From the NCBI GenBank assembly GCA_008933795.1, contig WBUJ01000007.1, positions 1 through 59,009 of the forward strand: a stretch of DNA of 59,009 nucleotides, written 5' to 3'. Shown here in pieces: positions 27,923 to 56,873 of this stretch. The notes under the pieces were generated by a model. That model was not told where the DNA came from. It made no database searches and saw nothing but the letters and a program-made list of their open reading frames with translations. Position 1 is the stretch's first letter, and each line of letters begins with the position of its first letter. The translations under genes and the position numbers were made by a program. Origin of the DNA: Candidatus Contendibacter sp. (GTDB lineage: Bacteria; Pseudomonadota; Gammaproteobacteria; Competibacterales; Competibacteraceae).

Positions 27923-28282
27923 TCAGGCCGGCGGCGCGGGTTCGGGCTCGAGCAGGGCTTTGCCCTCGGCGGCCGTGGCGCTGATGGTCATGATGTTGCT
28001 GAACCCGGCGGTATCGAACACGCCGCGCACGTTGGCCGACATCTCGCACAGGATCATCTTGCCGTTGAGCTTGTGCATCTTTTTGGCGAACCCCAGGAAC
28101 ACGCGCAGCCCGGCGCTGGTAATCAGGGCCAGCGCGGCGAACCGGATCAAAAAGCACCGTTCGCCGGCTTCGATCAGGCTGTTCAACTGCTGCTCCAGTT
28201 GCGGCGAGGTCATCCCATCCAGTTCTCCGGTCAGGAGGATTTCGGTTACCTCGCCCGACTTGGCCACGTTCACGGTTAACAC
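27923..28282 (-). CDS. STAS-domain anti-sigma factor antagonist
   Basis: A 119-residue single STAS domain starting at GTG 28282, after GAGGG. The phosphorylatable serine is S56 in LALITSAGLRVFLG, the SpoIIAA/RsbV signature. Unphosphorylated STAS proteins bind an RsbW-like kinase and release its partner. A short Pro/Ala/Glu tail follows the fold. Possible partners in the window are the RsbW-like protein at 32943 and the PP2C enzymes at 25577 and 46205. It is 108 bp downstream of the VOC gene, so a separate promoter is possible. Confidence 0.9.
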   Translation of the reverse strand: MLTVNVAKSGEVTEILLTGELDGMTSPQLEQQLNSLIEAGERCFLIRFAALALITSAGLRVFLGFAKKMHKLNGKMILCEMSANVRGVFDTAGFSNIMTISATAAEGKALLEPEPAPPA

Positions 28283-32942: not shown

Positions 32943-33362
32943 CTAAGCCAGATTCATTCCAAAGATGTTACGGTTGACGTTGTTGGACCGCTGATAATCG
33001 AAGCAGTCCACGCCCTGGAGAGCCAGGAAAATTCCCAAGCCCCCAATTTCGCGATCTTCCAGCGGCCTGTCGAGGTCTTCCGCGGTCGGCAGGCTCTGGG
33101 TGCGCGGATCGTAGGCGGCGCCCGTATCTTCCAGGACCACGGTCAGGCTCTGGTCGGTCCGTTCGATGGAAACCCCAATCCGACCGCTCAGACCCTGTTC
33201 TTCATAGCCGTGGGTGATGATGTTCGTGGCGATCTCATCCACAGCCAAGGCCAGACGATAAGTCGCTTCCTCGCTTAGTCTCGCGTTTTGACAAGCTAGC
33301 GTAACCAGTTGGCGAATGTCCGAGAGCGCCGCGAGGTTGGCCGGAATGCTGTGTTGGATCAT
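32943..33362 (-). CDS. RsbW-like serine kinase (HATPase anti-sigma type)
   Basis: The 139-residue protein is a single GHKL ATPase domain with the N-box LAVDEIATNIITHGY, G1 box LEDTGAAYDP and G2 box GGLGIFLA. That combination is typical of RsbW/SpoIIAB-family kinases, which phosphorylate STAS antagonists and hold a sigma factor or another partner. No ECF or group-3 sigma gene lies in the operon, so the output partner is unknown. It sits 18 bp downstream of a STAS gene, the normal rsbV-rsbW order. The ribosome site is weak, which fits coupling. Confidence 0.9.
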   Translation of the reverse strand: MIQHSIPANLAALSDIRQLVTLACQNARLSEEATYRLALAVDEIATNIITHGYEEQGLSGRIGVSIERTDQSLTVVLEDTGAAYDPRTQSLPTAEDLDRPLEDREIGGLGIFLALQGVDCFDYQRSNNVNRNIFGMNLA

Positions 33363-33380: not shown

Positions 33381-33698
33381 CTAGGGATAGCTCTCCTGAA
33401 GATAAACGGCTTGGTGAAAGCCGCTCATCTGCATCGTGTTGAGGACGGGACCCGTGGCGCCGATGACGTAAATGGCCACATCCCGTCCCATGCGCTGCTT
33501 GGCGAACACCAGCACGCGCAGACCCGCGCTGGCCATGAATTGCAGCTTGTCCATGAACAAGACGAGCTTCTGGGGCTTCTCCTGAGCGGCGTGTTCGACG
33601 GTTTGGCGGAACTGATCGGCTACCGCGGCATCGAGTTCCCCCTCGAGGGTGATCCGGGCCTCGGAGTCGACCATTTCAAGATTTGCGCTGAATGCCAT
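33381..33698 (-). CDS. STAS-domain anti-sigma factor antagonist
   Basis: A 105-residue single STAS domain with S57 in LQFMASAGLRVLVFAKQ as the likely phosphosite. The strong site GGAGGG lies eight bases before the ATG. It is directly upstream of the RsbW-like kinase, so it is the prime candidate for that kinase's substrate. It differs in sequence from the other two STAS proteins of the window, which suggests distinct inputs rather than recent copies. Confidence 0.9.
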   Translation of the reverse strand: MAFSANLEMVDSEARITLEGELDAAVADQFRQTVEHAAQEKPQKLVLFMDKLQFMASAGLRVLVFAKQRMGRDVAIYVIGATGPVLNTMQMSGFHQAVYLQESYP

Positions 33699-33740: not shown

Positions 33741-35855
33741 TTAGGGGCGCCCGATCAGGATCACCACGGCCCGTCCTCCAACCAGGAAGCTGTGCTGATA
33801 CGGTTCCAACGGAGTCTCGTGACCGGGTTCGTAGATGTCGTGGGGCGCCGGCAGAGCGGTGTTGGCGAATAAATGCCAGCGATAGTTGACCGGCAGTTCG
33901 GGCAACTCGAAGGGCAGGGCGTCCCAATAACCGTTCAGGGCCATGTAGAGCACCGGACTGGTATTGCCGGCTTGGCCGGCCTGACGTTCGCGGAACATGC
34001 AGGCCAGGGTTCGCGAACCTGGCGACCAGTCGGCGTTCCAGGCCTGGGTGCCATGCCAGATGATGTCGGCCTGGGTGGCGCTCGTCCCGAAATGCTCGCG
34101 GGTGCGCAACAACGGATGGGTCTTGCGCAAGGCGATCATCTGGCGGGCAAAGTGGAACAGGTCGGCGTTGCGTTCCAGCAGGGTCCAGTCGAACCAGTTC
34201 AGGTCGTTGTCGTGGCAGTAGGTATTGTTGTTGCCCCGCTGGGTGCGGCCCACCTCGTCGCCCATCAGGATCATCGGCACCCCATGGCTCATCAATAGAA
34301 TGGCCAAGGCGTTCTTGATCATGCGCTTGCGCAGGGCGTTGACTTCAGTGTCGTCCGTTTCACCCTCGACCCCACAATTCCAGCTATGGTTATCGTCGCC
34401 GCCATCGCGATTTTGCTCGCCGTTGGCTTCGTTGTGCTTGTGGTTGTAGGCGAACTGATCGTAGAGGGTGAAGCCGTCGTGGCAGGTGATGAAGTTGATC
34501 GAGGCCGTGGGACCCCGTTTGTTCCAGCCGTAGAGATCCGGCGAGCCTTGGATGCGCTCGGCAATCACCGGGACCATCCCCTCGTCTCCTTTCAGGAAAC
34601 GGCGGATGTCGTCGCGGTACTTGCCGTTCCACTCGGCCCACCGGCCGTAGGCGGGGAAGGAGCCAACCTGATACAGGCCACCGGCGTCCCAGGCTTCGGC
34701 GATCAATTTGCACTTGGCCAGGACGGGGTCGAAGGCCAAGCTTTCCAGTAGCGGGGGATTGGGCAGCGGGGCACCCCAGGGATCGCGCCCCAGGATGGCG
34801 GCCAAGTCGAACCGGAAACCATCGATGTGGTATTCCGCCGCCCAGTAGCGCAGGCAGTCGAGCACCATCATCCGCACCACGGGGTTGTTGCAATTGAGCG
34901 TGTTGCCGCAGCCGCTGAAGTTGAAGTAATACCCCTCCGGCGTCAGCATGTAGTAGGTCTGGTTGTCGATCCCCCGGAAGGAAAGGGTCGGACCCTGCTC
35001 GTTGCCCTCGGCGGTGTGGTTGAACACCACGTCGAGAATGACTTCGATCCCGTTGCGGTGCAACTCCTTAACCAGGTTCTTGAACTCGTCCACCTGCATC
35101 CCGAACGGCCCGGTAGCGGCGTAGCCGGTCTTGGGGGCGAAGAAACCCACCGTGCTGTAGCCCCAGTAGTTGTACATGGTCTCGCCGGTGACCGGATTGG
35201 GACGACTGTTCTCAAACTCGTCAAACTCGAAGATGGGCATCAGTTCGACGCAGTTCACCCCCAACTCGTTCAGATAGGGGATTTTGGCGATGATGCCGGC
35301 ATAGGTGCCGGGATGCTTGACTCCGGCGGAAGGATGGCGGGTGAAGCTGCGCGTGTGCAGTTCGTAGACCACCAAATCCTCGAGCGGCTTTTCCAGGGGA
35401 CGGTCGTCCTCCCAGTCGAAATCCTCGAAGATCAGTCGGGCCCGGTGGGGATAGGGATCGTTCCAATCGGGCGGCTTGCCCCAGACATCGCGCCCGCCGA
35501 TCGCCTTGGCGTAAGGATCGAGCAGGATCTTGGAAGCATCGAAACGGTGTCCCGCCGCTGGATCCCAAGGGCCGTCCATGCGGTAGCCGTACTCGGTTCG
35601 CTCGTAGTCGAGATCGAACACCACCATGCACCAGGTGTTGCCGATGCGGAAGGAGTCGGGGAAAGGGATCTCCACCATCGGCTCCGGCGCGCCTTTCTCG
35701 AACAGAACCAAGGTACACGAGGTGGCGTAACGGGAGCAGATGGCGAAATTGACCCCCCCCGGCACCAAGGTAGCCCCGAACAGCACGGGACGCCCCGGAC
35801 GGAGCTTGTAACCCTGATGCTGGTGAGTCGGATAAAAATCGATGCGGGTATCCAT
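33741..35855 (-). CDS. glgX: Glycogen debranching enzyme GlgX
   Basis: The 704-residue enzyme has an N-terminal CBM48 domain (residues 15-115, PLFGATLVPGGVNFAI-type pattern) and a GH13 barrel. Conserved regions are VILDVVFNHTAEGNEQGP, GFRFDLAAILGR with the nucleophile Asp, LIAEAWDAGGLYQVG with the acid Glu, and FITCHDGFTLYD. The C-terminal beta domain ends HSFLVGGRAVVILIG. It hydrolyses alpha-1,6 branches of phosphorylase-limit glycogen. It is unusual to find it outside a glg operon and between two STAS genes, whose stop and start are 2 and 42 bp away. Confidence 0.93.
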   Translation of the reverse strand: MDTRIDFYPTHQHQGYKLRPGRPVLFGATLVPGGVNFAICSRYATSCTLVLFEKGAPEPMVEIPFPDSFRIGNTWCMVVFDLDYERTEYGYRMDGPWDPAAGHRFDASKILLDPYAKAIGGRDVWGKPPDWNDPYPHRARLIFEDFDWEDDRPLEKPLEDLVVYELHTRSFTRHPSAGVKHPGTYAGIIAKIPYLNELGVNCVELMPIFEFDEFENSRPNPVTGETMYNYWGYSTVGFFAPKTGYAATGPFGMQVDEFKNLVKELHRNGIEVILDVVFNHTAEGNEQGPTLSFRGIDNQTYYMLTPEGYYFNFSGCGNTLNCNNPVVRMMVLDCLRYWAAEYHIDGFRFDLAAILGRDPWGAPLPNPPLLESLAFDPVLAKCKLIAEAWDAGGLYQVGSFPAYGRWAEWNGKYRDDIRRFLKGDEGMVPVIAERIQGSPDLYGWNKRGPTASINFITCHDGFTLYDQFAYNHKHNEANGEQNRDGGDDNHSWNCGVEGETDDTEVNALRKRMIKNALAILLMSHGVPMILMGDEVGRTQRGNNNTYCHDNDLNWFDWTLLERNADLFHFARQMIALRKTHPLLRTREHFGTSATQADIIWHGTQAWNADWSPGSRTLACMFRERQAGQAGNTSPVLYMALNGYWDALPFELPELPVNYRWHLFANTALPAPHDIYEPGHETPLEPYQHSFLVGGRAVVILIGRP

Positions 35856-35857
35856 AC

Positions 35858-36202
35858 TCAGGCCTGCTGGAGCGTGGTCAGGGCCTGATCGACGGTATCG
35901 GCCACGGCGAAGAATTTGAGAAATCCCGTGACCGCCATCGTATCCTTGATGGTCTCCGCTACCCCCGCCAGCGCCACCCGACCGTTGCGCGACATGGCCT
36001 GACGGTAGAGCAGGAGCAGCACGCGCAGGCCAGCGCTGGACATATAGGTGACGCTCCTCAAGTCCAGGATCAACGAACTGTCCTGTTGCAAGAGAGGCAG
36101 AATCCGGGCCTGTAATCCGGGCGCCGAACCGCCGTCGATCTCGCCGGCCACGGTGACGACCGTCACCCGGTCCCGGGTGGAAACCTCAACCTCGATCGCC
36201 AT
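35858..36202 (-). CDS. STAS-domain anti-sigma factor antagonist
   Basis: A 114-residue single STAS domain with S56 in VTYMSSAGLRVLLLLYRQA as the likely phosphosite. The site GAAGGA lies before the ATG. Its stop is only two bases before the glgX start, so the two are translationally coupled, which ties expression of the regulator to that of the debranching enzyme. A direct action on glgX or neighbours is possible but not shown. Confidence 0.9.
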   Translation of the reverse strand: MAIEVEVSTRDRVTVVTVAGEIDGGSAPGLQARILPLLQQDSSLILDLRSVTYMSSAGLRVLLLLYRQAMSRNGRVALAGVAETIKDTMAVTGFLKFFAVADTVDQALTTLQQA

Positions 36203-36235: not shown

Positions 36236-38065
36236 TTATTTGACGGGAGTGAGGGTCGCCTTGACCCGCACGTCTTGACGGGAGTCTGGCAATTGGATGG
36301 ATAGCCCCTCGGCGTCGAAAGCCGAGTAGGGCCTTCCATCGATCTCGACGGCGGTCAGGCGGACGCTGCCCTTGGGCAGGATATCCGGGGCGACCCGCAG
36401 GATCCGTCCGGGGAAGCCGTCCGGTCGTGGCTTGAAGTGGAAGGTCATCGGCTGCTTGTTGATCAGCAGATTGATATAAGTCGCCGACAGGAAACACAAT
36501 TCGGTGGAGTGATAGGCGCTCATCGAGTGGCTGCCCTTGAAGCGCTCGTTGCCGAGCAGATAAGGCAGACCATTGGCCAGCACGTTGAAGTAGACGCCGC
36601 CATCGTCGTGGTCCAGGAAGAAGGCGTTGTAGAAGGCGGTCGCTTCGCGGCCGTGTTTCTGGTAATCCGCCTTGCCCAGGCAGCCTTGCAGGATCAGATA
36701 GGCCAGGATAGCCTGCTCCTGCTGCCACCACGCCTTGCGGTCGTGCCAGACGAAACGGTGAACCTCCTCGCCGGGGGCGAGCACCCGCTCGACCACGTCG
36801 TACCAGCCGTTGCGGACTCGATCGGAACCGACCTCGGGCATCAACTGGGCGATTTTTTCCGCCAGGGCGACATAGTCGGCATTGGGGCGAATGCTGTGAA
36901 TGCGCATCAGGTTCCAGGCGATCTTGAGATTGTGCCCGACCACCGCGCGGTTCTGTTGCCAGCCCCAAGTGGTATCGTGGCTCCAGTCCTCGAAGAAACG
37001 CTCCTGGACAAAAGGAGAATGCTCGTAATCGGGAAAATGCGTCACGATGGTGTCGGCGGTATAAGCCAGGAAATCGGCGTATTTGTCCTCGCCGGTGGCC
37101 AACCAGAGATTGATGAGGTAAGCCGGAGCGTGATCGCCGACCGAGTTCCAGTTCTTCTTAGCGCGGTTGTTGCCCTTGTCCAGCAGGGGCGAGCGGGGAT
37201 CCAGGCTGATGGGATCAATGTGGGAGAAATAGCCCTCCTTCTCATTGTCCTTGTAATACTTGTCGAACAGTTCGATGGTTTTCTCGATGTCGTACAGGAT
37301 GCGCGGGTCGCCAGTCAGACGATAGGTTTGAGTCGGGCCGGCCAGGGCGTAAATCTGCTCGTACATCGGGAGCGAATCGTAGTCGTCTCCGAACTCCGAG
37401 GTCAGCAGCTTTTGTTCGCGGTCGCCGGAAACCTGAACCCCGTGATACCAGTAGATGAGGTTTTCGTCCGAGTCGAAGAAGCGCATGTGGGCGCGCAGGT
37501 ATTCCGTGCCCTTCTCGGCCGCTTCCAGGAAGCTTTCTTCGCCGGTGAGCATATACGCCGAGGCCATTCCGTAGATCATGCGGGAAATGGTGTCGGTTTC
37601 CTGCAGGTAGTCGCCTTTCTTGCCGCCCGCCAAGTGCAACATGGTGCGGTAGTTGCGATAGTCGATGGATTGATGGGGGTAGTTGAATTGCCAGCGCAGG
37701 TAGCTGTTGGCAATCGACCGGATCTGCTTGATCCACCAGTCCGGTTCCTCGTGGCGGTAAATTCCGGGGCCATCGCCCGGAAAGACCATCGCTTTCGCTT
37801 CCACCCGCACATCCCCGGCTTGGGGGTAAAAGATGCAGTACGCATAGACATGCTGACCAGGTTGAAGCATTTGCCCGATGCGGGCCGTGCAGTCCTGGTA
37901 GGACTCCTCCAGGTTCTGGCTAATGCGCGCGTAGGTGGTAGGAGTGAGATGGATTCGGAATTCGCGGCCGTCACTGGTTTTGAGATCGAAACTGCGGGCG
38001 GCGCGATCCATCTGCGTCACGTAACCGGCGATGGTATCTGAATAGGTGTACTGTTGAATGGCCAT
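36236..38065 (-). CDS. AGE-fold (N-acylglucosamine 2-epimerase-like) protein with extra N-terminal domain
   Basis: The 609-residue protein begins with a beta-rich domain (residues 1-90). A helical (alpha/alpha)6-barrel region follows (about 110-530), with the AGE-type motifs VVGHNLKIAWNLMRIH and DRKAWWQQEQAILAYLIL. A beta-rich C-terminal part runs from about 535 to 609. AGE-family enzymes epimerise or isomerise sugars; some members act on disaccharides or as lyases. Its length is well above that of typical epimerases (about 400), so the substrate may be an oligosaccharide or a reaction other than epimerisation. The start has GAGGAGAG. Confidence 0.7.
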   Translation of the reverse strand: MAIQQYTYSDTIAGYVTQMDRAARSFDLKTSDGREFRIHLTPTTYARISQNLEESYQDCTARIGQMLQPGQHVYAYCIFYPQAGDVRVEAKAMVFPGDGPGIYRHEEPDWWIKQIRSIANSYLRWQFNYPHQSIDYRNYRTMLHLAGGKKGDYLQETDTISRMIYGMASAYMLTGEESFLEAAEKGTEYLRAHMRFFDSDENLIYWYHGVQVSGDREQKLLTSEFGDDYDSLPMYEQIYALAGPTQTYRLTGDPRILYDIEKTIELFDKYYKDNEKEGYFSHIDPISLDPRSPLLDKGNNRAKKNWNSVGDHAPAYLINLWLATGEDKYADFLAYTADTIVTHFPDYEHSPFVQERFFEDWSHDTTWGWQQNRAVVGHNLKIAWNLMRIHSIRPNADYVALAEKIAQLMPEVGSDRVRNGWYDVVERVLAPGEEVHRFVWHDRKAWWQQEQAILAYLILQGCLGKADYQKHGREATAFYNAFFLDHDDGGVYFNVLANGLPYLLGNERFKGSHSMSAYHSTELCFLSATYINLLINKQPMTFHFKPRPDGFPGRILRVAPDILPKGSVRLTAVEIDGRPYSAFDAEGLSIQLPDSRQDVRVKATLTPVK

Positions 38066-41707: not shown

Positions 41708-42178
41708 GCTTACCCCCCGGATAGACCGAACGCAATTTTCGATAGGGCAATAATGGCCATCGCGCAGCGCTGGATTAACCCCCATGCAAAATAGCTATAA
41801 AAGCTACGTTTTGTGTAATATGAATTATGCGCTAATTGCGGATTTGGGGAGCATAACCAAGCTTCATGATGGTCAGAAACCAGTCTAGCACAAGACCTAC
41901 TATTTTGATAAACTATTTTTCATATCGTAGGGACTTTGGATGGATTTCAGGGACAAGTTAGAGAATTTATTTCTTAAATCAAAAAGTTATTTGTTTTTTT
42001 CGCTATGGCCCAAGCGACCGGGAAAGTCATCGAGCGCCGTGGATCGGAAAGACCAAAACGTGTCTGAATCTTGGGTCAATAAGGAAAAGTATTTAATTTC
42101 AAAATGTTAAATTCTATACGCGATCCGCTGGCCGCGCAAAAAACCGTCCGAGCCATTGATTGCTCAGGGAGAAATCCA
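41708..42178. promoter_or_regulatory. Divergent AT-rich region upstream of the barrel protein and the methyltransferase
   Basis: This 471-bp gap is clearly AT-richer than its surroundings, especially 41800-42100, and holds no convincing reading frame other than a 25-codon extension of the methyltransferase from 42104. It must contain promoters for two divergent genes. Runs such as TTATTTGTTTTTTTCGC (41988-42004) resemble neither a terminator hairpin nor a clear promoter. Nothing further can be assigned. Confidence 0.35.
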
Positions 42179-43024
42179 ATGAATCCAGTGTGCGATGTCG
42201 CGGACAATTACGATCAGTACTTTGCCAGCCAGTTGTACGACCAGCGGTATCCTCGCCCAAACCCGTCGAGTTTCGCCATCGTGGCGCGCGAAATACAGGA
42301 GGGCAGGGTCAGGGTTCTGGACTTTGGCTGCGGCAATGGCCGCTATGCCGCGCCCCTGCTTGAGCAAACGAATGCGATGATCGTTGCCTGTGATATCAGC
42401 CGGGAAGCGATTGACGAACTATCGGTGCGATGCGCCAAGCATGTCGATACGGGCCGGCTGCGTCCGGTGTGCGGCGATCTATCGGTTTTGACTAACACAA
42501 TGGGTCGAGGAGAGCGTTTTGATTTGGCGATTCTGATGTTTGGGGTGCTGGGTCACATTTTCTCCCGCGCGCTTCGTCAAAAAACGCTCGCGGTTATCCG
42601 GGGCCTGTTGCGGCCTGGGGGTCGGATCATCGTTACGGTACCCAACGCCGCGCGCCGTTTTCTCAAGCAGCAGGTCGTGGCGCGACGCTGGGTGCAAGAG
42701 GGAAATTTCGAGCCAGGCGATATTCTTTACGAACGAAAGGCTGATCATGTAGTAGTAAAAATGTATTATCATTTATACAATCCTGAAGAGTTCATGTTGG
42801 AATTCGAGCAACAGGGATTTCGCCTAATCCAGGTGGGGGCCGAGAGCTTTTTGCCGGAGAGCGGGGTCGTCAGGTCGACGACGCTGCACTGGCTCGACCG
42901 AGCGTTGGCGATCATCGCGCCTCTGCGCTACGCCCACGGCTTTCTCGCCGTGGCGGAGGTCGCGCCCGATGCGGACCAAGTCGCCCGCGCGCCGCAGATC
43001 GCCGATCCCGGCTTGCCAGGATAA
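42179..43024 (+). CDS. Class I SAM-dependent methyltransferase
   Basis: From ATG 42179 (MNPVCDVADNYDQYFASQLY) the product is 281 residues. Motif I is VRVLDFGCGNGRYAAPLL, the acidic loop is ACDISREAID, and post-motif I regions include FDLAILMFGVLGH and LRPGGRIIVTVPN. It uses S-adenosylmethionine on an unknown acceptor. GGGAG six bases before 42179 favours this start over ATG 42104. The ABC receptor gene begins eight bases after its stop, so it is the first gene of that operon. Its link to the transporter or phosphatase is not known; receptor methylation is one possibility. Confidence 0.88.
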   Translation: MNPVCDVADNYDQYFASQLYDQRYPRPNPSSFAIVAREIQEGRVRVLDFGCGNGRYAAPLLEQTNAMIVACDISREAIDELSVRCAKHVDTGRLRPVCGDLSVLTNTMGRGERFDLAILMFGVLGHIFSRALRQKTLAVIRGLLRPGGRIIVTVPNAARRFLKQQVVARRWVQEGNFEPGDILYERKADHVVVKMYYHLYNPEEFMLEFEQQGFRLIQVGAESFLPESGVVRSTTLHWLDRALAIIAPLRYAHGFLAVAEVAPDADQVARAPQIADPGLPG

Positions 43025-43032
43025 GCTAGGCC

Positions 43033-44634
43033 GTGAGTAGCCGTCTGGTGCTCCGCGTCGCCTGCTTGTTGGCGTTGATTGCGATCCTGGGCGGTCGGGA
43101 GGCGCTGGCCGACCGACTTGACCTGATTCAAAAGCGCGGAACCCTGATTGTCGGCGTCAAGTCCGACTATCCGCCGTTTGGAATGCTGGATGCCAACGGT
43201 CGGCTGATCGGCTTCGAACCCGATCTTGCCGCCGATCTTGCCCGCCGCTTGGGCGTCCAGTTGCAACTCGTTGCCGTCAGTTCCACCAACCGCCTGCAAA
43301 AGCTTCAGGAAGGAGCCATTGACGTGGTGGTCGCCACCTTGGGCGATACCCCGCAGCGCCGACAAATCGCCACCCTCATCGAGCCTAATTACTATGCCAG
43401 CGGTGTGACGGTCGTGGCGCCCCCCAACGCTTATCTATCCAGTTGGGCCGATCTGCGCGGCAGAAAAGTGTGCGCCACCCAGGGCGCGTACTTCAATCGG
43501 TCCATGGCTCAGCGCTTCCTGCTTGACCTGCAGGTCTTCAACGGTACGCGCGACACCAAGATGGCCTTGCGCGATGGGCGATGCGTCGCTTGGCTGTACG
43601 ACGACACCGGCATCGTGGGCATCCTCGGCGATCCGGAATGGGCGAATTACGAGGCGCCACTGCCTTCCATGATGATCTCGCCGTGGGCCGTGGCCATTGC
43701 CGCTCTGGAACGTGGATCCCAACTTGAGCGCGCCATTTCCGATGCCGTCGCCGACTGGCATCGGAGCGGCTGGCTGATCGAAGCCGAGAAGCGTTGGGGA
43801 ATCAAGCCGAGCCGGTTTCTGGCCGAGACGCGCGAACTTTGGACGCGCGCCAAGCCCGATGGCGGCGCGGTCTGCGCCCGCATGCCCGATGGCGAATGGC
43901 CAGCCGAGTGCAGGAACAAATTCCTGCTGACCTCCACCGATGTCGGCGGCCTCCAACACGTCGGCCTGTTGATCAAGGAGCGGACGGGGATCAACCTGAC
44001 GGTTCTCTACGATGCCTATGATCGCAATCTCTTTCTGTCCGGCCTCTGGATGACGCTGCGCCTGATGGTCGGCTCCATCGCTGGAAGCCTGATCCTGGGC
44101 TGCCTGGGGGCGCTGATGGCCGGGGGCATTCCCTTGCTCGGCGGCTTGGTGCGGCTAGCGGCCGCCCTCGGGCGGATGACACCCCCCCTGCTGCTGATTT
44201 ATCTGGTCTTTTTCGGCGTCGGCCATATCGTGGTCACCCGCTACGGGTGGACCTTCGACGGCTCCTTGATCGCGATCCTTTGCCTGTCGTTCTATACCGG
44301 CTGCGCCATCGTATTCGCCCTGCTCGAGGCGGGCGCCGTACTCAGGGACCAGGAACCCGGCTTTGCGCTGAACTGGCGCGGCCTGCCGCGGGCGTTGCGC
44401 TTGGCCTATGCCCCCGTTATCGCCTCGTTGGTCAACGTCGTGAAAGCGACCGGCATGGCCAGCGCCATCGCCGTGCCGGAACTCATTTCGGCCTCCACCG
44501 CCATCGTGGCCGAACAGGGCAACGCCGCGGTCATGATGAACGTGTTGATGATCGCGTATTTCCTGCTGGTGATGGGCGTCGTCCAACTCTTCAATTACTT
44601 CGAGCGCAGGATGATCCGGCATGACGTCCGCTGA
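43033..44634 (+). CDS. Fused solute-binding domain and amino-acid-type ABC permease
   Basis: The 533-residue protein starts at GTG 43033 with a signal/anchor (VLRVACLLALIAILGGREALA). Residues 30-265 form a family-3 solute-binding domain (GTLIVGVKSDYPPFGMLDAN, GFEPDLAADLARRLGV). A linker with Cys residues follows. Residues 320-530 form a permease of the His/Glu/Gln type, with LYDAYDRNLFLSGLWMTLRL and the coupling region ASLVNVVKATGMASAIAVPE. The EAA motif is degenerate. Fusion of receptor and permease is known but uncommon in proteobacteria. The next permease gene overlaps its end by 14 bp, and no ATPase gene follows. Confidence 0.87.
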   Translation: MSSRLVLRVACLLALIAILGGREALADRLDLIQKRGTLIVGVKSDYPPFGMLDANGRLIGFEPDLAADLARRLGVQLQLVAVSSTNRLQKLQEGAIDVVVATLGDTPQRRQIATLIEPNYYASGVTVVAPPNAYLSSWADLRGRKVCATQGAYFNRSMAQRFLLDLQVFNGTRDTKMALRDGRCVAWLYDDTGIVGILGDPEWANYEAPLPSMMISPWAVAIAALERGSQLERAISDAVADWHRSGWLIEAEKRWGIKPSRFLAETRELWTRAKPDGGAVCARMPDGEWPAECRNKFLLTSTDVGGLQHVGLLIKERTGINLTVLYDAYDRNLFLSGLWMTLRLMVGSIAGSLILGCLGALMAGGIPLLGGLVRLAAALGRMTPPLLLIYLVFFGVGHIVVTRYGWTFDGSLIAILCLSFYTGCAIVFALLEAGAVLRDQEPGFALNWRGLPRALRLAYAPVIASLVNVVKATGMASAIAVPELISASTAIVAEQGNAAVMMNVLMIAYFLLVMGVVQLFNYFERRMIRHDVR

Positions 44635-45280
44635 GATCGTGCATGTCTTGGTGGTGTGGACGCCGTTCCTGGCGGACGGCTTTCTGTGGAATATCCTGAT
44701 CTCGCTGGTCGCCATGGCCATCGGCACCGTGTTTGGCGCGGCGCTGGCGCGACTGCGCCTGTCCAGGCGGAAATCCATCGCGCGCGCAAGCCTCGCCGCC
44801 ACCGAACTGACGCGCAATATCCCGACCTTCGTCTTCCTGTTCTACCTGGCTTTCCTGATTCCAGTGGAATTCGAGGTTTTCGATGTGATCTACTCCTTTC
44901 CCGCTTGGCTCAAGGCATCGCTGGCGCTCTCGGTGGCCGTGGTCGGGTTTGTCTCCGACAATCTCTTCGTCGCCTGGCGATACTGGCGAAGCGACAATCA
45001 TCCAGCCGCGCTGCTTTTCATTCCCAGTTGGACCATGTACCTGCTGATCATCGTGATGGCGTCGAGCACCGCCTCGGTCATCGGCGTGGGCGAAATCGTG
45101 TCGCGCTGCAACGTCCTGATCGCTGCGGTAGGGGGCGACGAGATGATGATCTGGGTTTACGTTTACGCCATAGGCTATTTCTTCGGGCTTTGTTTCCCGC
45201 TGAACTGGGCGATGGGTCATGTGAAAAAACGCCTGCTGGCGCGCGTCAGCGGGGCGCCCGCGCAAGAATGTGGCGAATGA
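44621..45280 (+). CDS. Amino-acid-type ABC permease
   Basis: The 219-residue polytopic protein (about five helices) has FLADGFLWNILISLVAMAIG, TELTRNIPTFVFLFYLAFLI and the coupling region WTMYLLIIVMASSTASVIGV, matching the HisM/GlnP permease pattern but with a weak EAA motif. It overlaps the upstream fusion gene by 14 bp, indicating coupled synthesis and probably a heterodimeric membrane core. The usual partner ATPase (HisP/GlnQ type) is not in the window. Confidence 0.87.
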   Translation: MTSAEIVHVLVVWTPFLADGFLWNILISLVAMAIGTVFGAALARLRLSRRKSIARASLAATELTRNIPTFVFLFYLAFLIPVEFEVFDVIYSFPAWLKASLALSVAVVGFVSDNLFVAWRYWRSDNHPAALLFIPSWTMYLLIIVMASSTASVIGVGEIVSRCNVLIAAVGGDEMMIWVYVYAIGYFFGLCFPLNWAMGHVKKRLLARVSGAPAQECGE

Positions 45281-45294
45281 TGAGGAGGGGAGCC

Positions 45295-46194
45295 TTGAAA
45301 CAAATGGTCGCGATACTCCGTAGCTACCTGCCAAGCGCGATCGCGGCGGTGCTACTGGTTTTAGCCGCGCCGGAAACGGCATGGGCGGAGCGTGTCCTCG
45401 ACCGCATCGGAAACACCGGCGTTTTCAACGCTGGAACCCGCGCCGACGCCTTGCCGTTTGCCTATCGCGACAATAAAGGACGGTTGATCGGTTTCTCGGT
45501 CGATCTGCTCGGTCAAATCCACAAGCGGCTTGAGCAGCGATTCGGTCGCCCGATTGAAATGAAGCTGAGCGCGACCACGGCGAGCAACCGGATAGAAATG
45601 GTGGCCAGTCAGGTCATCGATATCGAGTGCGGCATCACCACCCCCACCTGGAAGCGGCAGGAAGCGGTGGATTTCTCGATCCCGTTCTTCGGCAACGGCA
45701 CCCGCATCATGACCCTGCGCACCACCGCCGAGCGGTTGCAAGACCTGCGCGGCAAGCGCATCGGCGTCGCCGCCGGCACGACGACCACCGCGATCCTTGC
45801 CGCGCACGCGCCCGAGTCGGTGATCGTCGAAGTCCCCGATATGGACACTGGGTTTGCCCTGTTCGAACGCGGAGAGATCGACGGTTTGTCCAATATTGGG
45901 ATCGTGCTGCGCGCCAAGGTCGAGAAAAGTCCGCTCAAAAGCAAGGTCATCCTGCTGCCGCGCACCGAGGAGTTTTCCTACGAATCGATGGCCTGCATCC
46001 TGCCCAAGGACGACTCCGAATGGCGCGCCTTCGTCAACCGGGTATTCGCGGATCTTCTCGAAGGCGTCGATCAATACCAGGGGTCCTATATCGAGATCTA
46101 CGATCGCTGGTTCGGACCACGCGGGGTCATCTATTTTCCGCTCGACTATAAGGCAGCCCAGCGGTTGGCCGCTTCAATCATCTGGCTCAAGTAG
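45295..46194 (+). CDS. Family-3 solute-binding protein
   Basis: About 299 residues with a signal peptide (SYLPSAIAAVLLVLAAPETA-WA) and the domain signatures LPFAYRDNKGRLIGFSVDLL, IECGITTPTWKRQEAVDFS and IGVAAGTTTTAILAA. Ligand type is probably an amino acid or related small molecule. TTG 45295 stands five bases after GGAGGGG and is my choice; ATG 45277 (overlapping the previous stop) and ATG 45304 are alternatives. It is followed after 10 bp by the phosphatase gene, so the second receptor and the phosphatase may form a sensing pair (inference). Confidence 0.85.
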   Translation: MKQMVAILRSYLPSAIAAVLLVLAAPETAWAERVLDRIGNTGVFNAGTRADALPFAYRDNKGRLIGFSVDLLGQIHKRLEQRFGRPIEMKLSATTASNRIEMVASQVIDIECGITTPTWKRQEAVDFSIPFFGNGTRIMTLRTTAERLQDLRGKRIGVAAGTTTTAILAAHAPESVIVEVPDMDTGFALFERGEIDGLSNIGIVLRAKVEKSPLKSKVILLPRTEEFSYESMACILPKDDSEWRAFVNRVFADLLEGVDQYQGSYIEIYDRWFGPRGVIYFPLDYKAAQRLAASIIWLK

Positions 46195-46204
46195 GATCGT
46201 GGTC

Positions 46205-48238
46205 ATGACGCTGCGCCGCCGGCTCTTCCTCTTCGTCACGCTGATCATCGCCATCGGTGTTCCAAGCACCGCCGGAGTGTTCGCCTATGTTTCCTGGCGG
46301 TCCGTTCTGGAGCGGACCGAGCGGGACGGCGCCTTGGTCGCTCAACTGCTCGCCCAGTCCATCAGCTTCATCCAGCAAGTGCCGGTGGCTATCCAGGAGA
46401 TCGTTGGCAGGGACGTGCAGGCCCAGGCGGATATCGTCGCGCATCTGATCCAAATCGCGCGCCAGCGTAAAGCGGCCCCCCTGGAAATCAATCAAGCCCT
46501 GCGCAATATCGCCGCCAACAATGGGATTCCGGAAATCTGGGTGACTGATGCCCGCGGCGCTCCAACTTTCTGGTCGCTCGACGATATCAGCGCGACCATC
46601 GGCGTCGATTCCGGCTTGGCCCTGCGGCCGGTTTTCCGACCGCTGCTGGAGGGAAATCGGTTCAGCATCTTCACCGATCTTCAGGTTCGCAACCTTGACC
46701 GTCGCGAGATGTACTATGGCGGCGTCGCCTTGCCGGATCGGAACGGCATGGTCCTGATCGCCCGCCAGCCCGGCCGCGTCAATCAGATTCTCAACAGCAT
46801 CGGCCTCAAGCGGATGACCGAAACCGTCATGTCGGGGGCGTTGATCGACGCCATCTGGGTTTTCGACGAAAACCTCAAGCCGGTGATCGCCACTTCCGCC
46901 GCAGACATCGACAAATCCACCGCGTTGACCGCTAACGAGCGCGGCCTCGTCGAAAGGGCCGTCAAGGCTAGCGCACCCGTCTCGCATCTCGAAAGCGGCG
47001 AACTCCACGAGGTGTTGTTCGGACATGGGTTGTTGTACGTGGCGGCTCCCATTTTCGGCGCGGACGGTTTGCCCAATGGAGCGGCGCTCATGAGTCTGCC
47101 CGTCAACATGCGGGCGGAACTCCATTCCCTGCTGACGATCGGCGGTGGGCTGACCGTCTTGCTGCTGTTGTTGGGCATGGCCTTGGCGCTGCCCTTTCTC
47201 AACCGCATCGTCAGACCGTTGGCTCGCCTGACCGTTCAGACCAATCGCTTGGTGGAACACGATTTCAACGCCGACCAGGAAATGCACGAGGAACTGCGCA
47301 GGGTATCCGAGAATCGCCATGACGAGGTCGGCTTCCTGGGCGGCGCGCTGTACTCGATGGTGACCCGGCTCAAAACCTATATCGTCGAACTCAAGGAAAC
47401 CACCGCGGCCAAGGAGCGGATCGAAGGTGAATTGTCCGCGGCGCGCAGCATCCAGATGGGTATGCTGCCCAACTTTTTCGGGTTGCCCGATCATGCCGAG
47501 TGCGACCTTCACGCGGTACTGGAGCCGGCGAAGGCCGTGGGCGGCGACCTGTTCGATTTTTTCCTGCTCGACGAGCACCGCCTGTTCTTCCTGATCGGCG
47601 ACGTGTCGGACAAGGGGGTGCCGGCCGCGCTGTTCATGGCGGTCACCAAAACCCTGTTCGCCGTGGAGGCGCAGCGCGATTCTGCTTCGGTCGGCCGCAT
47701 CATGGAACGGGTCAACAAAGCCCTGTGCGAAAATAATCCAGAAGGAATGTTTGTCACGGTCTTCGCCGGTATTCTGGACCTGCGCAACGGCGAGATCACT
47801 TGCAGCGACGGCGGTCACGAACTGCCTTTTGCGTTGCGGCGCAGCGGCAGCGTGGAGATGATCGAAAAGAAAAACGGTGGGCTGGTGCTCGGCTTCTTCG
47901 CCGACTCCATTTACCAGGAGGACGTCATCCGACTGCTGCCTGGCGAAGGCTTGGTGATCTACACCGACGGGGTCACCGAAGCGATGAACGCCAAGCACGA
48001 GATGTTTACGGCGACACGCCTGAACGATGCCCTGGTTCCGGTATGCCGCGAGGGTTCCGCCCACGCCATCATCGACAGCGTCATAAGCTCTGTCAAAGCC
48101 TTCGTGGGCGGTCATCCACAAAGCGATGACATCACGCTGCTGGTGCTGCGCTGGCGTGGCCCCGCCGATGCGGCGGCGAGCGGGACCGGCGTCGCCCCCG
48201 AAGCAGATTACCGGGAACCACCCGCCGAGGTGGTGTGA
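46205..48238 (+). CDS. Membrane PP2C (RsbU/SpoIIE) phosphatase with extracytoplasmic sensor and HAMP
   Basis: The 677-residue protein has an N-terminal helix (RLFLFVTLIIAIGVPSTAGVF), a periplasmic region of about 270 residues (sCache/dCache-like, with IPEIWVTDARGAPTFWSLDD), a second helix (GGGLTVLLLLLGMALALPFL), and a HAMP region with the Arg-Pro-Leu motif. The SpoIIE phosphatase domain (about 435-660) has AVGGDLFDFFLLD, LIGDVSDKGVPAALFMAV, SDGGHELPFAL, IYTDGVTEAMNA and SDDITLLVL, all key acids present. It would dephosphorylate STAS proteins such as those at 27923, 33381 or 35858. It is the last gene of the ABC operon. Confidence 0.92.
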   Translation: MTLRRRLFLFVTLIIAIGVPSTAGVFAYVSWRSVLERTERDGALVAQLLAQSISFIQQVPVAIQEIVGRDVQAQADIVAHLIQIARQRKAAPLEINQALRNIAANNGIPEIWVTDARGAPTFWSLDDISATIGVDSGLALRPVFRPLLEGNRFSIFTDLQVRNLDRREMYYGGVALPDRNGMVLIARQPGRVNQILNSIGLKRMTETVMSGALIDAIWVFDENLKPVIATSAADIDKSTALTANERGLVERAVKASAPVSHLESGELHEVLFGHGLLYVAAPIFGADGLPNGAALMSLPVNMRAELHSLLTIGGGLTVLLLLLGMALALPFLNRIVRPLARLTVQTNRLVEHDFNADQEMHEELRRVSENRHDEVGFLGGALYSMVTRLKTYIVELKETTAAKERIEGELSAARSIQMGMLPNFFGLPDHAECDLHAVLEPAKAVGGDLFDFFLLDEHRLFFLIGDVSDKGVPAALFMAVTKTLFAVEAQRDSASVGRIMERVNKALCENNPEGMFVTVFAGILDLRNGEITCSDGGHELPFALRRSGSVEMIEKKNGGLVLGFFADSIYQEDVIRLLPGEGLVIYTDGVTEAMNAKHEMFTATRLNDALVPVCREGSAHAIIDSVISSVKAFVGGHPQSDDITLLVLRWRGPADAAASGTGVAPEADYREPPAEVV

Positions 48239-48243
48239 ATTGG

Positions 48244-48272
48244 TCTTCCCGGGCGCCGTTCACCCGGGAAGA
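48244..48272. terminator. 10-bp hairpin at the ends of convergent genes
   Basis: TCTTCCCGGG (48244-48253), a nine-base loop, and its exact complement CCCGGGAAGA (48263-48272). It lies just after the phosphatase stop and covers the stop of the convergent YbaK-like gene. No T-tract follows on either strand, so termination would not be of the strict intrinsic type. Confidence 0.5.
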
Positions 48273-48754
48273 TGGATAATGCGCGGCGGGTGCCCGACCG
48301 CTTCGAGAAATCTCAGAAGATCGCCCGTGGCGATGGTGGTCGTGCGGTCGTTTTGGAGCGGGTGGCAGTTAAGGAGGTCGGCATCGAGCACGCGCCGGTC
48401 CAGGACTATACAGGCGCGGCCATCGGCGTCGTTGATGGCGGCGAACGGCGAGACCGCTCCGGGAACGACGCCGAGGATCCGGCCCAGTTCCTCCTCATTG
48501 GCGAACGAGAAGCGCGGCGCTTCCAGCAAGGACGCCGTAACCCGCAGGTCGATCCGGGTTTGCTCCAGCGCCGCCAGCAGCCAGTATCCGCCCTTTTTGT
48601 CCTTGAGAAACAGACTCTTGACATGGCCACCCTTCAGGTTGCCGCGCAGGCGCCGACTGTCCTCGATCGTGCGCAGCGGCGGATGCTCCACCGTTGTAGT
48701 CACGATGCCCAGTTCGTCGAGCATGATCGTGAGTTGTTGGCGGTCAACGGGCAT
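48260..48754 (-). CDS. YbaK/ProX-type aminoacyl-tRNA deacylase
   Basis: From ATG 48754 (MPVDRQQLTIMLDELGI) the product is 164 residues. Family landmarks are the Lys-containing LKGGHVKSLFLKDKKGGYWL and the loop VVPGAVSPFAAINDADG. Proteins of the ProX/PrdX subgroup remove mischarged alanine from tRNA-Pro. GAGGG lies seven bases before the ATG. The frame runs further upstream but without a ribosome site. Exact substrate specificity cannot be read from the sequence. Confidence 0.87.
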   Translation of the reverse strand: MPVDRQQLTIMLDELGIVTTTVEHPPLRTIEDSRRLRGNLKGGHVKSLFLKDKKGGYWLLAALEQTRIDLRVTASLLEAPRFSFANEEELGRILGVVPGAVSPFAAINDADGRACIVLDRRVLDADLLNCHPLQNDRTTTIATGDLLRFLEAVGHPPRIIHLPG

Positions 48755-48825
48755 GGCTATACCCTCGTGGCGCTTTCGGCGCCGATCCGGGAAGAAGGAG
48801 ACCCAATCTCCGGGGGTCAATGGGT

Positions 48826-50859
48826 TCACGCATCGGGAGACGGCTCCTGTTTGGACCGTCCGGCGCGCAATTGACTGGCCTGCGCGCGCAACCGCTTGAA
48901 ATAGTCCGACTCCACGATTTCGCCAACCTGTTTGGCGCGCTTGATCTCGTCGATCTCGATGTTCAGTTCCTGGATTTTCTGCTTGAGTTGATTCTCTCGC
49001 GCACGCACTTCCTGGGCGTTTTGGATGACGATGGCGGCTTGCATGGCAATGCTTTCGAGCAGGCGCAACTTGTCGGCGTCGAATCCGTTTTGCTGTTTGC
49101 TGACCAGTTCGAGAGCGCCAATGTTTTTCCCCTTGACTTGGAGCGGTACGCCCAGGTAGGACTTGGGATCGAGAGAGGTCCAGGTGCGCGCGGGTTGGTT
49201 CTGAGCTTCGGACACGGCGTCCAGACCGGACAGTAGAATACCCTCGCCGCTGGCGAGCAGTTGCCCGTGCAATCCTTGATCCCTGGCATAACCCTGTTGG
49301 GTATTTTCGACCGGATCGCCCCCCACGGCCAGATAAACCACCAGTTTCTGCTGAGTATCATCCAGCAGGGATAGCTCCATGGCGTCATACGGGACAACGC
49401 CGCGGATGGAGTTGGCAACGTAATGAAGGGTGTCGTCCAGGTCGATACTGGAACTGATCGATCGGCCTACCTGGTAGATCGTGCGCAGTTCGGCCATGCG
49501 CGCTTGGAGCGCCAGCACCATTTTGCTGAAAATGCGCGCCAAATGACCAATCTCATCTCCCAGCGTCGTGACCTCGGCGACCGCATGTTGCCGAAACGGT
49601 TTGTCTTGTTCGACTTCCCCTGCCGTGGCTGCCAGTCGGTTGATGGGTTTGGCGATCACCCGGGCCAGCAGCAGGGAAATCACGATGGCCAGGATGGCCA
49701 TGATGGCCGCGATGCCAAAACCGAATAGCTGCTGTTGATCCACGGCGTTCAGAAAGGCTTGTTCCGGCAAGTCGACGATCACCATGAACCGCTGGGCTGG
49801 CGCATCGTTGCCGCTCGCGGTTACGTTCGGCAACAGGACTGGCGTATAGGCGGCGACATGCCAAGCGCCGCTGCATTCATTAGTTCGGGGCGCGGCCCCG
49901 AGGTCGGCGGGCCAACAGAACCGCATGCTGCCCGTCCGTCCGGCGACAAACGCCTCCAGCACCTGATCGCCTAGGAGTTGCAGGGCCGGCAGAGGCTCCG
50001 GTTGGCGAGCGATTTTGTCTTTTGGCGGGCACTGTGCTTGGCGATCGGGGCAGACGCCGCCCAGCGGTTTTGCTTCCGCCACGCGCCGCGCCGCTTCGGG
50101 CGAAAGCGTTCCCAGGCTGCGATAAAGCCAGTCGTCCCCCTGCGACTGACTCATGATGATGCCGTTCGGATCGACCAAATACAGCGTCATGACCTGGGCT
50201 TCATTCGGGTCGGACGAGGCGCTCAGCGTTTGGGAGAACATGTCGGCGAACAGCTTGCCGTCGAGATGCGTGGCCATTGCTCCGATAACTGCACCCTTCT
50301 CCCGGATGGGTACCGAGAAGTTCATGCCCAACCGGTCGTTGACCAAATCGCGTCGTATGCCCGAGACAAAGGATTGGCCCCGCAACGCCGTTCCGATGAA
50401 ATCGCGACCACTCAAGTCGTTGCCGAGCAGTCCACGGTCGGTATGCGCCATCACCGTGCCATTCGGGTCGTAGATGCCGACCACGTCAATCGCGGGGTTT
50501 GCCTGTTGCAGGTTGGTCAGCGCGGCATTCACCGGTTCCGGAGGGGTGGGTTGGGTGGCGGGGGGTGCTGCCCGCAAATAGGCGGCAATGGCCGGATTGC
50601 TGGCGGAGACTTGTAGCAGGTTGTGGTTGTCCAGCAGCAGATTCGAGAAACGCAACGCGACGCTGTGGCCGAGTAGCGAGATATTGGCTCGCGTCTCGTC
50701 GGTCAGGGCGTCCGTGCTGGTGCGCACGACAATTCCGATCGCCGCCAGGAGCGGCGCCAGCGAGACCAGTAGCAGAACGACCAACAGCTTGTTCGAGATG
50801 CGCCAGTGGCGGAACGAAAACTTTTTCCGGAACGGAGGAACTGGATTCTGGATGTTCAT
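48826..50859 (-). CDS. Cache-HAMP-GAF sensor without output domain, ending in the shared tail
   Basis: The 677-residue protein has an N-terminal helix (KLLVVLLLVSLAPLLAAIGI) and a dCache periplasmic domain with IDVVGIYDPNGTVMAHTDRG and MTLYLVDPNGIIMS. A second helix (FGIAAIMAILAIVISLLLA), HAMP (about residues 405-460) and a GAF domain (about 475-615, SYLGVPLQVKGKNIGALELV) follow. No histidine kinase, GGDEF or methyl-accepting domain is present. The last 60 residues (VIQNAQEVRARENQLKQKI ... RAKQVGEIVESDYFKRLRAQ) match the tail of the FHA/cyclase-like protein at 23386. The tail is therefore the likely output or docking part. Confidence 0.88.
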   Translation of the reverse strand: MNIQNPVPPFRKKFSFRHWRISNKLLVVLLLVSLAPLLAAIGIVVRTSTDALTDETRANISLLGHSVALRFSNLLLDNHNLLQVSASNPAIAAYLRAAPPATQPTPPEPVNAALTNLQQANPAIDVVGIYDPNGTVMAHTDRGLLGNDLSGRDFIGTALRGQSFVSGIRRDLVNDRLGMNFSVPIREKGAVIGAMATHLDGKLFADMFSQTLSASSDPNEAQVMTLYLVDPNGIIMSQSQGDDWLYRSLGTLSPEAARRVAEAKPLGGVCPDRQAQCPPKDKIARQPEPLPALQLLGDQVLEAFVAGRTGSMRFCWPADLGAAPRTNECSGAWHVAAYTPVLLPNVTASGNDAPAQRFMVIVDLPEQAFLNAVDQQQLFGFGIAAIMAILAIVISLLLARVIAKPINRLAATAGEVEQDKPFRQHAVAEVTTLGDEIGHLARIFSKMVLALQARMAELRTIYQVGRSISSSIDLDDTLHYVANSIRGVVPYDAMELSLLDDTQQKLVVYLAVGGDPVENTQQGYARDQGLHGQLLASGEGILLSGLDAVSEAQNQPARTWTSLDPKSYLGVPLQVKGKNIGALELVSKQQNGFDADKLRLLESIAMQAAIVIQNAQEVRARENQLKQKIQELNIEIDEIKRAKQVGEIVESDYFKRLRAQASQLRAGRSKQEPSPDA

Positions 50860-56034: not shown

Positions 56035-56805
56035 TCACGCGGCGGCCCGGCGGGCGCGGCCAGGCTCCTCGTTATACAGCGCGTAACCCTGTTCCTCCAG
56101 TTCCAGCGCCAACTCCTTGCCGCCGGAACGAACGATGCGGCCATTGAACAGCACATGCACGTGATCCGGCACGATGTAATCCAGCAGGCGCTGATAGTGG
56201 GTGATGACCAGGAAACCGCGTTCCGGGCTGCGCAGGGCATTGACGCCGTCGGCGACTACTTTCAGGGCGTCGATGTCCAGCCCGGAATCGGTCTCGTCCA
56301 GCACCGCGAAACGAGGTTGCAGCACCGCCATCTGAAACACTTCGTTGCGCTTTTTCTCGCCGCCGGAGAAGCCTTCGTTAACCGAGCGCTTGAGCATGGA
56401 TTCGTCCATCTTGACCAGTTCCATGCGCTCGTGGACCAAATCCCAGAAGTCCATGGCGTCCACCGGCGGTTCGCCGCGATACTTGCGCACCGCGTTGACG
56501 GCGGCTTTCAGAAAGTACAGGTTGGCGACGCCGGGGATTTCCACCGGATACTGGAAGGCCAGGAACAACCCTTCGCAGGCGCGGGTTTCCGGGGCCATGT
56601 CCAGTAGATTCTTGCCGTCAAAGTGGATGGCGCCCTCGGTGACGAGGTAACCCTCGCGGCCGGCGATGACATTCGCCAGCGTGCTTTTACCGGAGCCATT
56701 CGGTCCCATGATGGCGTGGACTTCGCCCGGACGGACGATAAGGTCGATGCCGTTGAGAATTTCCCGGCCATCGACCGTGGCGTGCAGATTGCGAATTTCC
56801 AGCAT
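56035..56805 (-). CDS. sufC: SUF ATPase SufC
   Basis: The 256-residue ABC-type ATPase has Walker A GPNGSGKSTLANVIAGREGY, the signature EGFSGGEKKRNEVFQ, Walker B FAVLDETDSGLDIDAL and His-switch LVITHYQRLLDYI. It drives conformational change in SufBCD during cluster assembly. ATG 56805 (MLEIRNLHATVDGREIL) is the family start; a 14-codon extension upstream is open but unsupported. A hairpin of the intergenic repeat type lies in its 76-bp gap from sufB. Confidence 0.96.
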   Translation of the reverse strand: MLEIRNLHATVDGREILNGIDLIVRPGEVHAIMGPNGSGKSTLANVIAGREGYLVTEGAIHFDGKNLLDMAPETRACEGLFLAFQYPVEIPGVANLYFLKAAVNAVRKYRGEPPVDAMDFWDLVHERMELVKMDESMLKRSVNEGFSGGEKKRNEVFQMAVLQPRFAVLDETDSGLDIDALKVVADGVNALRSPERGFLVITHYQRLLDYIVPDHVHVLFNGRIVRSGGKELALELEEQGYALYNEEPGRARRAAA

Positions 56806-56840
56806 GATTGACGATTCTCTTCTCGATTCGACGATATAAG

Positions 56841-56873
56841 CCCTCACCCCAACCCTCTCCTAAAGGGAGAGGG
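56841..56873. repeat. Intergenic hairpin between sufB and sufC
   Basis: CCCTCACCCCAACCCTCTCC followed by TAAAG and GGAGAGGG; the core stem is CCCTCTCC/GGAGAGGG with a five-base loop. It is of the same type as the repeat inside sufS (54636) and the one after sufU (52931). Such elements are scattered between genes in many proteobacteria. Confidence 0.5.

Follow-up and report, generated by a model that had tools for sequence, protein, structure and literature searches.

Transporter-derived receptors are known in yeast, and the locus described here would share with the transporter-like amino-acid receptors the use of a transporter-type membrane protein for sensing; in contrast, those receptors have an unrelated fold and work without binding proteins or a PP2C partner switch. 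The polar-amino-acid ABC importers (ArtQN, 4yms; HisQMP; GlnQ-type systems; TIGR01726) resemble it in their family-3 binding domains, type I permease fold and two permeases per operon. In GlnPQ (structures such as 6h30 and 4kqp), a binding domain is fused ahead of the permease, and GlnP works with the ATPase GlnQ. The EAA motif of type I importers such as MalFGK2 forms a pair of short helices on the cytoplasmic side, and it is one of these helices that docks into the ATPase; the motif is the direct permease–ATPase contact and holds the coupling helix (PMC3150292). Among type I sugar importers, different systems are documented to share an ATPase (PMC7658222). On the signaling side, the SiaABCD partner switch of Pseudomonas aeruginosa, which is linked to the availability of carbon, has a PP2C phosphatase that acts together with a kinase on an antagonist-like protein (PMC7647112).

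Here, we analyzed a 59,009-nucleotide stretch (the window) from a glycogen-storing wastewater bacterium, in which an importer look-alike probably senses nutrients instead of importing them. In contrast to the polar-amino-acid importers, its locus has no ATPase, both EAA/coupling loops are shortened, and a phosphatase or, in some relatives, a cyclase adjoins it. Unlike GlnPQ, it pairs a fused permease with a plain one, and neither retains the full docking loop. It resembles SiaABCD in associating a PP2C phosphatase with a kinase and an antagonist-like protein, but SiaABCD has no ABC-like receptor, and the proteins found here are STAS proteins and an RsbW-like kinase.

Results

The open reading frames of the window confirmed the five-gene operon, with overlaps or gaps of 8–14 bp, that an earlier sequence-only reading had described; the order and junctions were as given there. 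MT (42104–43024, +) encodes a class I SAM methyltransferase (Pfam Methyltransf_25, 7e-15), whose conserved start lies nearer 42179, with orthologues aligning from residue 26. After an 8-bp gap, FUS (43033–44634, +) encodes a family-3 solute-binding domain (SBP_bac_3, 6e-25) joined to a type I ABC permease domain, and overlaps by 14 bp with PERM (44621–45280, +), which encodes a type I ABC permease subunit. PERM scored over the cut-off of the family-3 permease model TIGR01726, and the permease half of FUS below it. SBP2 (45295–46194, +), a second family-3 solute-binding protein (SBP_bac_3, 1.6e-22), starts with TTG 14 bp after PERM, and is followed after 10 bp by the gene for a transmembrane HAMP-PP2C phosphatase of the SpoIIE type (46205–48238, +; SpoIIE 1.3e-45, HAMP 2.9e-6), hereafter PP2C. 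The source genome comprises 4.38 Mb in 334 contigs; among named organisms, Candidatus Contendobacter MAGs are its closest relatives, their PERM being 84–86% identical.

The phmmer matches of FUS were amino-acid solute-binding proteins. Its residues R109 and D190, which we take to be ligand contacts from knowledge of GlnBP and LAO, are invariant in the alignment. Because these family-3 Arg and Asp positions appear to be kept in FUS, the ligand is probably an amino acid. In SBP2, the position at which family-3 proteins use an Asp aligns without one; its closest solved relative is an Asp/Glu-binding protein (2ia4/2vha, 2.4e-24), and it gave a sub-threshold match to GrrP (TIGR04262). About 280 aa of the PP2C protein form a presumed periplasmic region, which gave only weak Cache matches against Pfam in 2 of 13 members. 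Its motifs GGD, GDVSDKG and SDDIT are invariant across 13 orthologues, and the metal-binding aspartates of the catalytic domain are present. The protein is not equivalent to SiaA, as it scored 52.6 bits against the SiaA model with a cut-off of 700.

We aligned the loop regions of 22 fused-type loci (FUS/PERM pairs) with those of 16 unfused loci. Both permeases of all 16 unfused loci have a loop region of 74 residues. In contrast, the PERM loop region has 54 residues in all 22 fused-type loci, and that of FUS has 62–70 residues, 4–12 fewer, with the EAA-x3-G pattern gone. In the window, the shortened EAA loop of PERM (44957–45019, +) lacks 20 residues, and the EAA-loop remnant of FUS (44326–44412, +) has 64 residues versus 74 in canonical permeases and has lost EAA-x3-G. 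The proposed comparison with functional permeases thus revealed that the “weak” EAA motifs of the first description were an understatement, since FUS and PERM both have a shortened loop. A HisP-type ATPase is present in 16/16 unfused loci and absent from the fused-type stretches examined (the contigs of L023 and L124 are short), so that loop length splits exactly with the presence or absence of this ATPase in the locus. Since the fused loci are mutually related, the split represents one or few evolutionary events, not 22 independent ones. Relatives with the ATPase in the operon, which the sequence-only reading had named as evidence against itself, are all unfused and keep the EAA loop; this refutation does not hold. 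An unrooted permease tree with the loop masked set the ATPase-linked clade apart with a support of 0.996.

Predicted models of FUS and PERM, of moderate confidence (pLDDT 67–71, pTM 0.53–0.55), both matched 4yms_C best: PERM with Z 14.8 over 187 aligned residues (rmsd 3.5) and FUS residues 318–527 with Z 14.6 over 194 (rmsd 4.0). In these models, the permease fold is retained in both proteins. That coupling to an ATPase has been lost is well supported, and we are highly confident that FUS/PERM cannot be coupled to a HisP-type ATPase as ordinary permeases are.

A search of the operon and its flanks for a hidden ATPase found none. The claim that the window holds no nucleotide-binding subunit stands for importer ATPases and has to be amended for one ABC ATPase, the only one in the window, which is encoded 8 kb away (56035–56847, −) and is SufC (TIGR01978, 357 bits versus a cut-off of 213), not an importer subunit. 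The source genome contains many ABC ATPases, including two HisP/GlnQ-like proteins with 51–52% identity. Both adjoin their own permease(s), and their sharing is compatible with the sequence; genome searches for an orphan, as the first description had suggested, showed no spare HisP-type ATPase.

The source genome also contains a family-3 permease pair, C332 (L057, 5379–7779), with full EAA loops and without an adjoining ATPase or binding protein, which probably borrows an ATPase. This pair is what a borrowing importer looks like in this genome, and FUS/PERM is unlike it. Since C332 lacks a neighboring ATPase yet keeps its EAA loops, the absence of the gene is not a sufficient signal by itself, and we rejected the missing ATPase gene as the whole explanation.

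The same five-gene order was found in about 12 other named loci, and every full relative of the window operon shows it without variation; together with a terminal YbaK-type gene, it occurs in Competibacteraceae and Candidatus Accumulibacter. The dN/dS values of the FUS/PERM operon genes were 0.18–0.33, indicating that these genes are kept under purifying selection; combined with the recurring order, this indicates that the arrangement is not due to chance. FUS/PERM pairs occur in several classes or orders of Pseudomonadota, with open frames in nearly all relatives. In an Accumulibacter assembly (L020, 6409–8034), the FUS frame is broken, through a sequencing error or in reality. The fused type is rare, with 5 loci among 398 Pseudomonadota genomes sampled and 6 among 385 genomes from the class to which G382 belongs. 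Unfused relatives share roughly 25–46% identity with parts of the operon.

The signaling neighbors of FUS/PERM vary. In five alphaproteobacterial loci (L104, L105, L121, L122 and L123), which belong to another class of Pseudomonadota than the window, the SBP-permease fusion and the shortened PERM come after genes for a Cache/class III cyclase and a methyltransferase, without an ATPase. In L023, a Cache-PP2C protein and an additional binding protein precede FUS/PERM. The Burkholderia-type loci L025 and L094 have MT-FUS-PERM without an adjoining PP2C or other signaling gene, and no homologue of the window PP2C was found in these genomes at E<=1e-20. In the family relative G024 (L027, 6267–9259), the gene directly after a Cache-PP2C gene encodes a FUS-like binding protein that stands alone, with no permeases.

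On the reverse strand of the window lie the genes of a linked set: GH609, an AGE-like protein (36236–38065, −; PF07221, 4e-14); STAS36, an anti-sigma-factor-antagonist-like protein (35858–36202, −; PF01740, and TIGR00377 over the cut-off); the glycogen debranching enzyme GlgX (33741–35855, −; TIGR02100, 704 bits versus a cut-off of 641); STAS33, a second STAS switch protein (33381–33698, −; PF01740, 1.1e-14); and an RsbW-like HATPase_c_2 switch kinase (32943–33362, −; PF13581, 8e-23). STAS36 carries a Ser at the usual phosphosite, so that, judged by sequence, a STAS protein with a phospho-acceptor Ser and an RsbW-like kinase are both present as parts of a partner switch. No sigma factor or other kinase target was seen among the proteins scanned.

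GH609 and GlgX are linked to the cassette in relatives, and the RsbW-like kinase orthologue adjoins it in eight genomes. In Accumulibacter and several Competibacteraceae, the operon is followed by GH609, STAS36, GlgX, STAS33 and the RsbW-like kinase. This set lies on the other side of the operon, 4–9 kb away and on the opposite strand, in the window as well as in the two relatives nearest to it, and in the window other genes intervene between the operon and the STAS/GlgX genes. L016 has only STAS36 and RsbW of the set, and L021 has the operon without STAS/RsbW neighbors. A STAS36 orthologue was present in exactly 4 of 40 relatives, the four with full-length FUS; since the two genes are linked, this co-occurrence reflects co-inheritance and is not independent proof. 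A third STAS protein is encoded near a cation-efflux gene (27923–28282, −), outside the conserved cassette.

Discussion

Our analysis suggests that FUS/PERM is a polar-amino-acid type I translocator that was uncoupled from its ATPase and now serves as a receptor. The homology, the loop deletion, the loci without an ATPase, the gene linkage and the purifying selection are well supported; we infer from them the receptor function, the coupling to PP2C and the action of PP2C on a STAS protein. On balance, we favor the view that FUS/PERM and SBP2 form an ABC-importer-derived amino-acid receptor feeding a PP2C/STAS/RsbW switch, and we hold it somewhat probable that FUS/PERM is a receptor for its neighboring signal protein. 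The proposal that the complex is a sensor passing ligand occupancy to the phosphatase, and so to the STAS switch, was already made in the sequence-only reading; it has gained from the loop loss, the STAS/RsbW linkage, the co-occurrence of STAS36 with FUS and the Cache-cyclase neighbors. Of its contrast between sensor and transporter, the loss of ATPase coupling stands and sensing is partly supported by sequence, while permease–PP2C contact, a ligand effect and the absence of transport remain at the level of inference. The Burkholderia-type loci without PP2C, L021 without STAS/RsbW, and the distance of the STAS/GlgX genes in the window count against the receptor.

The proposed receptor would work as follows. 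An extracellular ligand, probably an amino acid, would be sensed by the tethered binding domain of FUS and by SBP2 as a second ligand detector. The ligand-bound domains may bind to the FUS/PERM dimer, to the PP2C periplasmic region, or to both, and the permease pair would relay their state, without ATP drive, to PP2C as the neighboring transmembrane signal protein, where the change would travel through HAMP to the phosphatase. PP2C would then dephosphorylate and reset a phospho-STAS protein (STAS36, perhaps also STAS33), whose state would set the RsbW-like kinase; these last steps are modeled on established partner switches, SiaABC among them (PMC7647112). Glycogen metabolism may be part of the output. 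The sole hint of such control is that the linked set contains GlgX, and we regard a link of the output to glycogen as possible but rather doubtful.

The retained transmembrane fold of the predicted models and the match of the binding domains to amino-acid solute-binding proteins would also suit an ATP-independent facilitator or channel fed by these domains, with PP2C as a co-regulated neighbor, and passive flux is compatible with the loss of the ATPase. However, signaling neighbors recur with two unrelated output types, and binding domains would presumably add little to passive flux. We consider this explanation unlikely, though with some chance of being correct.

The periplasmic region of PP2C raises a different explanation: PP2C could sense alone or through SBP2, with FUS/PERM merely linked to it and having another envelope function. 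The G024 locus, with its Cache-PP2C beside a lone FUS-like binding protein, is consistent with this. In contrast, selection maintains FUS/PERM next to signal proteins of several kinds, and the five-gene order does not vary among the full relatives, making this explanation quite improbable.

An ordinary amino-acid importer might borrow an ATPase encoded elsewhere, as do systems served by the multitask ATPases MsmX and MsmK. The sharing among type I sugar importers sets a precedent, and the source genome has two HisP-like ATPases, one of which C332 presumably borrows. However, both sit beside their own permeases, C332 shows that borrowing needs no loop loss, and the docking loop has been lost in both permeases of every fused-type relative aligned. 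Borrowing by FUS/PERM is therefore very unlikely. Finally, a decaying importer operon, which the loss of both motif and ATPase might suggest, is scarcely credible in view of the dN/dS values, the open frames in nearly all relatives and the distribution across several classes or orders of Pseudomonadota; a pseudogene reading was likewise rejected on the dN/dS values.

The receptor interpretation extends beyond the window. With about even confidence, we propose that FUS/PERM represents a class of receptors derived from an ABC importer by deletion of the ATPase-docking loops and used in a modular manner in Pseudomonadota, with a PP2C switch or a class III cyclase as output. If this is true, a 20-residue loop deletion together with an SBP-permease fusion would be a simple sequence rule for finding receptors of this kind, of which many would carry the annotation of amino-acid importer, and the operon would be a candidate sensory input for a GlgX-linked phosphatase switch in the glycogen- and polyphosphate-storing bacteria of wastewater treatment. 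In the open-access literature searched, we found no account of an ABC permease receptor that lacks an ATPase and lies beside a PP2C, nor of an ABC importer that shed its ATPase and docking loop yet stays in a signaling unit.

Downstream of the operon lies a conserved neighbor, a gene for a YbaK-type aminoacyl-tRNA editing domain (48260–48829, −; PF04073, 1.6e-27). It lies at the operon's end in all full relatives. In L023 (5950–7152), a YbaK-type domain is fused to a methyltransferase directly after PERM. In the window, the YbaK-type gene is overlapped by a few bases by a gene for a Cache-HAMP-GAF protein without a recognised output domain (48826–50859, −).
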